In this document: in pieces, positions 20,037-27,907 of the stretch | How positions within the stretch are numbered: position 1 is the first letter of the stretch | Layout of the letters: each line of letters opens with the position of its first letter | Origin: Aeromicrobium terrae | Lineage (GTDB): Bacteria > Actinomycetota > Actinomycetes > Propionibacteriales > Nocardioidaceae | Direction of reading: 5' to 3' | Length of the DNA stretch: 64,000 nucleotides | NCBI RefSeq assembly: GCF_008039565.1 | Contig: NZ_VDUX01000002.1 | Coordinates: 434,001-498,000 of the forward strand | Notes under the pieces: generated by a model | Databases searched by the model: none | What the model saw: the letters and a program-made list of their open reading frames with translations, nothing else | Told to the model about the DNA's origin: nothing | Program-made: the position numbers and the translations under genes

Positions 20037-21732
<1,696 letters not shown>

Positions 21733-25475: not shown

Positions 25476-25676
25476 CTACTGGCCGAGAACCTCGTGCGCC
25501 TCGCGACCCTTGGGACCGTCGACGACCTCGAACTCCACGGCCTGGCCGTCCTCGAGGGTCTTGTAGCCCTCGGACTTGATCTTCGACCAGTGCACGAACA
25601 CGTCGTCCTGGCCCTCGACCTCGATGAACCCGTAGCCCTTGTCGGCGTTGAACCACTTGACGGTGCCTTGCACCAT
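25476..25676 (-). CDS. cspA: cold-shock protein (CspA family)
   Basis: A 66-residue single cold-shock domain that binds single-stranded RNA/DNA. RNP1 is KGYGFIEV (residues 13-20) and RNP2 DVFVHW (25-30); the aromatic residues needed for nucleic acid stacking are present. A possible -10 (TAGTCT, minus strand 25730-25735) would give a leader of about 48 bases. It follows the sulfur-carrier gene on the same strand, an arrangement like Streptomyces. Confidence 0.97.
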
Positions 25677-25742: not shown

Positions 25743-26018
25743 TCAGCCACCTGCCACTGCGGGGATGATGCTCACCTGGGTCCCCTCCGGGGTGGGGGTG
25801 TCCAGACCGGACGCGAAGCGCACGTCCTCCTCCGCGACGTAGATGTTCACGAAGCGGCGCAGCGCCCCCTGCTCGTCGACGACGCGGGCCTTGATGCCGG
25901 GGTGGTTCGACTCCAGGGAGTCGAGGACCTCCGACAGCGTGGAGCCCTCGGCGCTCACCTGGGACTGGTCTCCGGTGTAGGTGCGGAGGATGGTCGGGAT
26001 GCGGACCGAGACGGCCAT
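25743..26018 (-). CDS. MoaD/ThiS-like sulfur carrier protein
   Basis: 91 residues with the ubiquitin-like beta-grasp pattern and a C-terminal Gly-Gly (ending IPAVAGG), the site where an E1-like enzyme adenylates and converts the tail to a thiocarboxylate. It therefore donates sulfur in a biosynthetic step. It is 15 bases downstream of the threonine-synthase-like gene and shares its SAM-riboswitch-controlled transcript, so the acceptor is probably a methionine-pathway intermediate, comparable to CysO with CysM in Mycobacterium. No desampylase-type protease (Mec) or E1 enzyme is adjacent. Confidence 0.88.
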   Translation of the reverse strand: MAVSVRIPTILRTYTGDQSQVSAEGSTLSEVLDSLESNHPGIKARVVDEQGALRRFVNIYVAEEDVRFASGLDTPTPEGTQVSIIPAVAGG

Positions 26019-26033
26019 GAGTGTCCTTCTCTC

Positions 26034-27302
26034 CTAGATCAGGTTCGCAGCGACGAACGCGTCGTACGTGGGGGCGATGGTGGCGGCCGGGCCGACGCGG
26101 TCGCTGACCGCGTCGAGGGTCTTGAGGCCGTGGCCGGTGTTGATCACGACGGTCTCGAGGTCGGGGTCGAGCTGGCCGGTCTCGGTGAGCTTCTTCAGCA
26201 CACCGACCGTGGTGCCGCCGGCGGTCTCGGTGAAGATGCCCTCGGTGCGGGCGAGCAGCACGATCGCGTCACGGACCTCGTCGTCGCTGATGTCCTCGAC
26301 CGTGCCGCCGGTGGCCCGGCAGATGTCGAGCACGTAGATGCCGTCGGCGGGGTTGCCGATGGCCAGCGACTTGGCGATCGTGTCGGGCTTGACCGGGCGG
26401 ATGGCGTCGACGCCGTCCTTGTAGGCGGTGGCGACCGGTGAGCAGCCGGTGGCCTGGGCGCCGAAGACCTTGTACGGCTTGGCCTCGACGAGGCCGAGCG
26501 CGACGAGCTCCTGGAACGCCTTGTGCACCTTGGTGAGCTGCGAGCCCGACGCCACCGGGATGACGATCTGGTCCGGCAGGCGCCAGCCGAGCTGCTCGGC
26601 GATCTCGTAGCCGAGCGTCTTGGAGCCCTCGGCGTAGAACGGGCGGACGTTGACGTTGACGAACGCCCAGCCCTCCTCCTCGCCGGCGATCTCGCTGGCC
26701 AGCTTGTTGACGTCGTCGTAGGTGCCGTCGACGGCCACGAGGTTCTCGGTGTAGATCGCGGAGTTGACCTGCTTCGGCGTCTCCAGGTCGCTCGGGATGA
26801 AGACGACGGTCTTGATGCCCGCGCGAGCACCGGCCGCGGCGACGGCGTTGGCGAGGTTGCCGGTGGACGGGCACGCGAACACCCGGGCGTTCAGCTCGCG
26901 GGCGGCGCTCAGGGCGCACGCGACGACGCGGTCCTTGAAGGAGTTCGTGGGGTTGGTGCTGTCGTCCTTGACCCACAGCTTGGCGATGCCCAGCTCGGCG
27001 CCGAGGTTCTTCGCCTCCAGCAGGCGGGTGAAGCCGGGCTCGAGGTTCGGGCTCTGCTCGATGTCGTCGGGCACGGGCAGCAGCGCCTTGTAACGCCAGA
27101 TGTTGCGGGGGCCCGCCTCGATCTGCTCGCGGGTGACGGTGCCGAAGTCGTAGCCGATCTCGAGCGGGCCGAAGCACTCGTGGCAGACGTAGTGGGGGCC
27201 GAGCTCGCGCTCCGTGCCGCACTCGCGACAGACGAGCGAACGCGCGGGGCCGAAGGCGCCGTCGCGGAGGGTGCCGACCGAATCTGGGGCCGTGATGGTC
27301 AC
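26034..27302 (-). CDS. threonine synthase homologue under SAM-riboswitch control (probable O-phosphohomoserine sulfhydrylase, MetM-like)
   Basis: 422 residues, fold-type II PLP enzyme. An N-terminal zinc-ribbon-like module has Cys25, Cys28, Cys40 and Cys43; the PLP lysine is in NSFKDR near residue 121; a phosphate-binding SGS-type loop follows (PVASGSQL). By homology it would act on O-phosphohomoserine. Classical ThrC makes threonine, but the SAM-I riboswitch and the co-transcribed sulfur carrier indicate that it makes homocysteine from O-phosphohomoserine using protein-bound sulfur, as I recall being described for a Streptomyces pair (MetM/MetO). Start is GTG at 27302, preceded by AGGAGG. 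A plain threonine synthase remains possible. Confidence 0.85.
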   Translation of the reverse strand: MTITAPDSVGTLRDGAFGPARSLVCRECGTERELGPHYVCHECFGPLEIGYDFGTVTREQIEAGPRNIWRYKALLPVPDDIEQSPNLEPGFTRLLEAKNLGAELGIAKLWVKDDSTNPTNSFKDRVVACALSAARELNARVFACPSTGNLANAVAAAGARAGIKTVVFIPSDLETPKQVNSAIYTENLVAVDGTYDDVNKLASEIAGEEEGWAFVNVNVRPFYAEGSKTLGYEIAEQLGWRLPDQIVIPVASGSQLTKVHKAFQELVALGLVEAKPYKVFGAQATGCSPVATAYKDGVDAIRPVKPDTIAKSLAIGNPADGIYVLDICRATGGTVEDISDDEVRDAIVLLARTEGIFTETAGGTTVGVLKKLTETGQLDPDLETVVINTGHGLKTLDAVSDRVGPAATIAPTYDAFVAANLI

Positions 27303-27315
27303 GGGACCTCCTGGG

Positions 27316-27421
27316 TCATCTTTCCCGGGTCGACTCTCGCCCGGGACGGAAGGAGCACCTGGCTCAGTCGAGCTGGTTGCTGGGGTTTCGTCGGGCCGTG
27401 TCCCTCTACCCCTCGTGATGA
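27316..27421 (-). promoter_or_regulatory. SAM-I (S-box) riboswitch
   Basis: Read on the minus strand, the leader has every S-box landmark in order: P1 5' strand TCATC (27417-27421), GAGGGGTAGAGGGA, GGCCCGACGAAACC, AGCAACC, AGGTGCTCCTTCC, a P4 stem of CCCGGG repeats, and GAAAGATGA whose GATGA (27316-27320) closes P1. The SD AGGAGG (27307-27312) begins 3 bases after P1, so control of translation is likely. A -10 (TAGGCT, minus strand 27430-27435) with TGGACG 18 bases upstream would start the RNA right at P1. High SAM should lower expression of the downstream enzyme and sulfur carrier. Confidence 0.93.
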
Positions 27422-27469
27422 GTGGGTCCAGCCTACGGGGGCGTCTCACGATGCGTCCACTTTGTCCGC

Positions 27470-27907
27470 TCAGTGAGACGGTCGTGACCACCTCGTGGAC
27501 GGCGGCCGGTAACCCCCGTCGGACAGGCTGGCCAGCCGCTCGAACGGGTTGTACGACGAGTGGTCGCCCGCGACGGCGTACGAGAACAGCACGGCGAGGA
27601 AGTACAGCGGGAGCATGGGCGTCCCGACGAGGAACGCGTACTGCGTGCAGTGCCGGTCCTCGTGCTGCAGGAGCAGGGGGCGCTCGCCCAGCCAGTCGAC
27701 GTCGTGCCGGCTGAGGATGACCGAGCCGATGGTGAACGCGCCCGCCTTGGGGAATCGCCAGCGGTAGCCGCTCGCGAGGTAGGTGCCCCGCCCACGCCGC
27801 TGGACGGTGGCGCCGCCGATCCAGGCGATCAACAGCCCGAGCGGCGTGCTCAGGTTGAGCCAGTTGAGGACGGTCCGCACCCGCGTCCAGGGCGTGCTCG
27901 GCAGCAT
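27470..27907 (-). CDS. membrane protein with an HExxH-like motif, unknown function
   Basis: 145 residues. Hydrophobic segments lie at about residues 20-35 and 100-120. Residues near 79-86 read HEDRHCTQ, an H-E-x-x-H pattern followed by Gln, found in small actinobacterial proteins of unknown role (some databases call them Fe-S oxidoreductases, which this sequence does not support). Whether it is a metalloprotease cannot be decided. The ATG at 27907 is 2 bases after the otsB stop, so it belongs to that transcript. An 8-bp inverted repeat (27442-27449 / 27473-27480) at its 3' end could be a weak terminator. Confidence 0.7.
   Translation of the reverse strand: MLPSTPWTRVRTVLNWLNLSTPLGLLIAWIGGATVQRRGRGTYLASGYRWRFPKAGAFTIGSVILSRHDVDWLGERPLLLQHEDRHCTQYAFLVGTPMLPLYFLAVLFSYAVAGDHSSYNPFERLASLSDGGYRPPSTRWSRPSH

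Follow-up and report, generated by a model that had tools for sequence, protein, structure and literature searches.

In mycobacteria, the CysM-CysO-Mec system produces cysteine from O-phosphoserine, using a fold-type-II PLP enzyme together with a ThiS/MoaD-type sulfur carrier that is charged by MoeZ. For homocysteine, Wolinella succinogenes reportedly employs a MetY-type enzyme acting on O-acetylhomoserine, and not a ThrC-like enzyme acting on O-phosphohomoserine, and MetM of Streptomyces albulus is said to convert O-phosphohomoserine to homocysteine with thiocarboxylated MetO. In the Wolinella protein-thiocarboxylate methionine route (Krishnamoorthy and Begley, 2011, as cited in PMC5764234), the carrier thiocarboxylate is the sulfur source for homocysteine, as it would be in the system considered here. 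The MetM/MetO system is known from Streptomyces (Hasebe et al., 2024, Appl Environ Microbiol 90:e01247-24, as summarised in PMC12172450), and according to that summary S. albulus has a SAM riboswitch upstream of metM, a metO gene and a MetM that is a homocysteine synthase. SAM-I also lies upstream of a two-gene unit, SLIV_16930-SLIV_16925, in S. lividans, which the relevant part of PMC8079986 assigns to threonine biosynthesis only, giving no carrier-dependent methionine role.

The locus studied here lies on the minus strand of a 64,000-nucleotide stretch of Aeromicrobium terrae DNA (the window). It shares with S. albulus, as outlined in that summary, a threonine-synthase-like PLP enzyme, a sulfur carrier gene and an upstream SAM riboswitch, and with CysM-CysO-Mec a fold-type-II PLP enzyme paired with a carrier of the MoeZ-charged ThiS/MoaD type; it differs from S. 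albulus in that A. terrae keeps MetX/MetY and cystathionine gamma-synthase and has tandem candidate NdgR-like sites. With a probability of roughly 0.9, the operon would be a metM-metO pair for SAM-controlled, carrier-dependent homocysteine formation from O-phosphohomoserine. A sequence-only reading of the window had proposed a SAM-I leader (27316-27421) in front of a threonine synthase homologue, a ThiS/MoaD protein with a Gly-Gly end as the next gene and a cspA/groEL neighbourhood, and each of these elements was recovered. The leader is the same element as the SAM-I (S-box) aptamer found by cmscan in the window at 27313..27424 (minus), a significant match to RF00162 that covers the full model (1-108) and scores 67.9 bits, above the gathering score of 44.4 (E=1.1e-13). 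The metM homologue (26034..27302, minus; assigned by family models, tree and alignment) has a GTG start and codes for a PLP enzyme of 422 aa with an N-terminal Cys4 module. The metO homologue (25743..26018, minus) begins 15 nt after metM and codes for a ThiS/MoaD-type carrier of 91 aa (ThiS family, 61 bits) that ends in AVAGG. Downstream lies the cold-shock protein gene cspA (25476..25676, minus; PF00313), a conserved neighbour outside the enzyme system that is also found downstream in 11 loci of family f3 and in a congeneric locus (L103), and a GroEL signature begins further downstream at 21668 (minus).

Family models agree that the enzyme is a threonine synthase homologue: it scores 228 bits with Pfam PALP, 259.9 bits with the NCBIfam thrC model TIGR00260 (cut-off 167.1) and 291.5, under the cut-off of 303, with the threonine synthase model NF006050. 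Because TIGR00260 covers MetM-type proteins above its cut-off, automated annotation names MetM threonine synthase. Such scores would fit a second threonine synthase, an isozyme for which SAM control is incidental, and mainly threonine synthase and deaminase activity is reported for a cyanobacterial homologue that shares 51.6% identity with S. albulus MetM (PMC12172450). We regard the isozyme as very improbable, since the sulfur carrier and SAM-I are conserved with MetM, since a canonical ThrC is encoded separately in 107 of the 110 genomes with a MetM-like protein and since SAM repression of threonine synthesis would send flux in the wrong direction. In plants, threonine synthase is activated by SAM. 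The question whether the window protein is the only ThrC of its genome is answered in the negative by a second, canonical one at C3:189886-190947 (TIGR00260, 280.6 bits).

The active site also argues against an isozyme. In a tree of 59 proteins, which includes no authenticated MetM sequence, the window protein falls in the MetM clade (support 96/97), on the side opposite the ThrC clade (97/97), and 34 alignment columns split the two groups almost perfectly. The PLP lysine of the window protein is K123, within SFKDR. The conserved active-site columns T89, S156, N158, R161, Q165 and N189 of ThrC (in its own numbering) are occupied in MetM by L150, N218, R220, Y223, S227 and S252, each in 99-100% of the sequences. 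Thr88, Ser155, Arg160 and Asn188 of Thermus ThrC, which we take to be the substrate-phosphate site and whose letters and numbers agree with the aligned sequence, fall in columns that MetM does not keep, being replaced by L150, a shifted Asn, Y223 and S252; relative to ThrC, MetM gains Arg220 and Lys258, two positively charged residues whose conservation is confined to MetM. Cys25, Cys28, Cys40 and Cys43, together with Cys287, are invariant among MetM and absent from ThrC. The presence of the Cys4 module at residues 25-43 is thus as previously noticed, whereas its suggested role in docking the carrier finds no specific evidence in it, because the curated PRK08197 'threonine synthase' profile aligns there too. 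The nearest relatives, an actinobacterium and Aeromicrobium, show 88-89% identity, and the only named relative in the plasmid collection, from Nonomuraea gerenzanensis, is 65% identical.

The absence of the classical homocysteine route, a common though not a defining trait of genomes with MetM, did not hold when the genome was searched for it, in contrast to the separate ThrC. MetX (NF047917, 514.8 against 475), MetY (NF005872, 768.7 against 703; metY is followed by metX) and cystathionine gamma-synthase (NF005871, 694 against 513; its gene adjoins CBS) are all encoded, each above its curated cut-off, and the genome therefore would not need a second route to homocysteine; a scan around its metYX genes detected no Rfam riboswitch. 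As the classical genes are kept, MetM appears from gene content to be an additional route here, not a plain replacement. That MetM makes some other sulfur compound, uses another acceptor or is largely idle while MetX/MetY supply homocysteine would agree with these intact MetX/MetY and transsulfuration genes and with the frequency of MetX, which 30 of the 31 genomes in the genus sample encode (61 of 121 in the family sample). It is most unlikely, however, given that the protein shares 62-67% identity and the discriminating columns with the MetM of family f3 (large genomes of 6-10 Mb, probably Streptomyces), that the Aeromicrobium loci examined retain the metM-metO pair and that the SAM-I is intact and the single copy in the 3.14-Mb genome.

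The assignment to metM-metO can be followed across the phylum, where the tree, carrier adjacency and SAM-I linkage in Actinomycetota all uphold the identification first proposed for the window. Among 296 Actinomycetota genomes with completeness of at least 90%, 110 encode a MetM-like protein (E<=1e-70), and at least 66 of these carry a same-strand SAM-I located -26 to 267 nt upstream. Direct cmscan detected a gathering-level SAM-I in all 15 Nocardioidaceae loci and in 16 of 19 wider loci. metO adjoins metM in 100 of 110 loci (73/80 close, 27/30 wider). The ten loci with no adjoining metO are L071, L072, L073, L078 (whose flank is short), L079, L084, L089, L117, L123 and L130; L123 and L130 lack a gathering-level SAM-I as well. 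MetM is enriched where MetX and MetA are missing: neither is found in 75 of the 110 genomes with MetM, against 63 of the 186 without it (odds ratio 0.24, Fisher p=1e-8, in a test that ignores kinship), and 35 of the 110 have MetX or MetA. MetX was counted here at E<=1e-50, since no genome, controls included, reached the curated cut-off of TIGR01392. In a separate family (f18; at least 23 genomes, G011 among them), SAM-I lies about 148-244 nt before metX, and none of these genomes has MetM.

The arrangement of the leader bears on how the control could operate. The Shine-Dalgarno sequence AGGAGG (27307..27312, minus) is flush with the 3' strand of P1, and the start codon of the metM homologue follows 10 nt past the end of the aptamer. 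Likewise, the Shine-Dalgarno sequence in Nocardioidaceae adjoins or overlaps the 3' strand of P1 and the start codon mostly lies 8-12 nt further on, an arrangement suggestive of control exerted directly on translation. In several distant relatives (L115, L121 and L124), the aptamer is separated from metM by a hairpin that resembles a terminator and has a T run. Judged from these leaders, the pairing of SAM-I with metM is the same, yet the expression platform appears to differ among lineages; no mention of differing platforms behind one metM aptamer was found in the literature searched. The three outermost P1 pairs of the window aptamer are non-standard, and the energy of the leader folded as a single sequence is unremarkable (z -0.94). 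An extended P1, in which an upstream GGACC would pair with a downstream GGUCC and mask the Shine-Dalgarno sequence, is attractive in the window, though it was rejected because, in a comparison over the relatives, native pairs barely beat swapped ones, of which 15 in 300 did equally well, and the likely transcription start is downstream of GGACC.

A putative -10 box of the TAnnnT type, TAGGCT (27430..27435, minus), precedes the aptamer and would place the start of transcription at about the aptamer's first base; most of 62 relatives have TAnnnT in the same position. TAnnnT is given as the S. lividans -10 in PMC8079986; a generic sigma-70 scan returned no promoter. Also upstream of the aptamer, Nocardioidaceae have two to three inverted repeats of about 15 bp, at about -81, -60 and -40 and spaced by 20-21 nt. 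The window holds three candidate operators on the minus strand. Copy 1, GTCCACGAGGTGGTC (27486..27500), lies inside the upstream ORF, at its 3' end, and matches the published S. coelicolor NdgR motif (PMC4340878) at 14 of 15 positions on the opposite strand, a match that is weak alone. Copy 2, GTCTCACTGAGCGGAC (27464..27479), a 16-bp variant of the NdgR-like site at its canonical position, is in register, at about -60, with the conserved site of the Nocardioidaceae relatives. Copy 3, GTGGACGCATCGTGAGAC (27443..27460), overlaps the promoter and is in register, at about -40, with the relatives' GTGCACATCGTGAGAC element. At a threshold of at least 13 of 15 positions, 65% of 63 Nocardioidaceae promoters contain the NdgR motif, taken from S. 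coelicolor, compared with 3% of shuffled sequences and 6% of randomly chosen stretches from the same loci. A degenerate operator pattern has six matches genome-wide against three with the reversed control, one of the six being an exact site some 48 nt upstream of leuB; these matches, the leuB site included, are suggestive only. The S. coelicolor metM is presumably SCO4293. Targets bound by NdgR include metF, cysM and genes for branched-chain amino acids, and an ndgR mutant requires methionine, with no mention of SCO4293 in the same paper (PMC4340878); tandem NdgR-like operators upstream of Nocardioidaceae metM were not found mentioned in the literature searched.

From these arrangements we tentatively suggest, at somewhat less than even odds, that Aeromicrobium and Nocardioidaceae possess a carrier-dependent route from O-phosphohomoserine next to a complete one from O-acetylhomoserine, that the former and not the classical route is the one that senses SAM, and that it may be under double control by tandem NdgR-type operators and by a SAM-I whose platform has been exchanged (P1 adjoins the Shine-Dalgarno sequence here, where distant relatives have a terminator).

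The genes that could supply sulfur to MetO are present. The only full ThiF protein of the genome (274.6 bits) has a C-terminal rhodanese-type loop, LYCKTGVRSAE, and so provides a MoeZ-like charging enzyme. A CysM-CysO-Mec-type cluster is also encoded: cysO lies in a cysO-cysM cluster (L003/L016) adjoined by a gene for a JAMM-type peptidase (desampylase model, 67 bits, under cut-off). MetO is identical to the genome's CysO at 50 of 94 positions (53%), against 24 of 91 for its MoaD, and CysM falls in the tree in a PLP subfamily other than that of MetM. We infer the reaction, the charging of the carrier, the release step and the direction and level of control as follows. MoeZ, by its adenylyltransferase and rhodanese activities, would turn the C-terminal Gly-Gly of MetO into a thiocarboxylate, and the PLP of MetM would bind O-phosphohomoserine, which homoserine kinase produces for threonine synthesis. 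After elimination of phosphate by MetM, attack of the MetO thiocarboxylate on the gamma carbon would yield an adduct of MetO and homocysteine. From this adduct, homocysteine may be released through hydrolysis or by the JAMM/Mec-type peptidase that works with CysO. MetM would in this way divert O-phosphohomoserine from ThrC towards methionine. High SAM would stabilise the P1 helix, and because this helix ends at the Shine-Dalgarno sequence, translation of MetM/MetO would drop when SAM is plentiful.

As the MetM/MetO system has already been published for Streptomyces, this is not a new route, and the present analysis contributes modest new regulatory and phyletic detail. The survey gives independent support of both kinds, well beyond Streptomyces, to the 2024 assignment of MetM/MetO, and it points out genomes with two coexisting homocysteine routes, in which gene deletions can serve to compare the two. 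MetM-like proteins occur in roughly one third of the Actinomycetota species sampled; since MetM is this common and is named threonine synthase by family models, predictions of methionine auxotrophy and of threonine pathways are probably wrong for many of these species.
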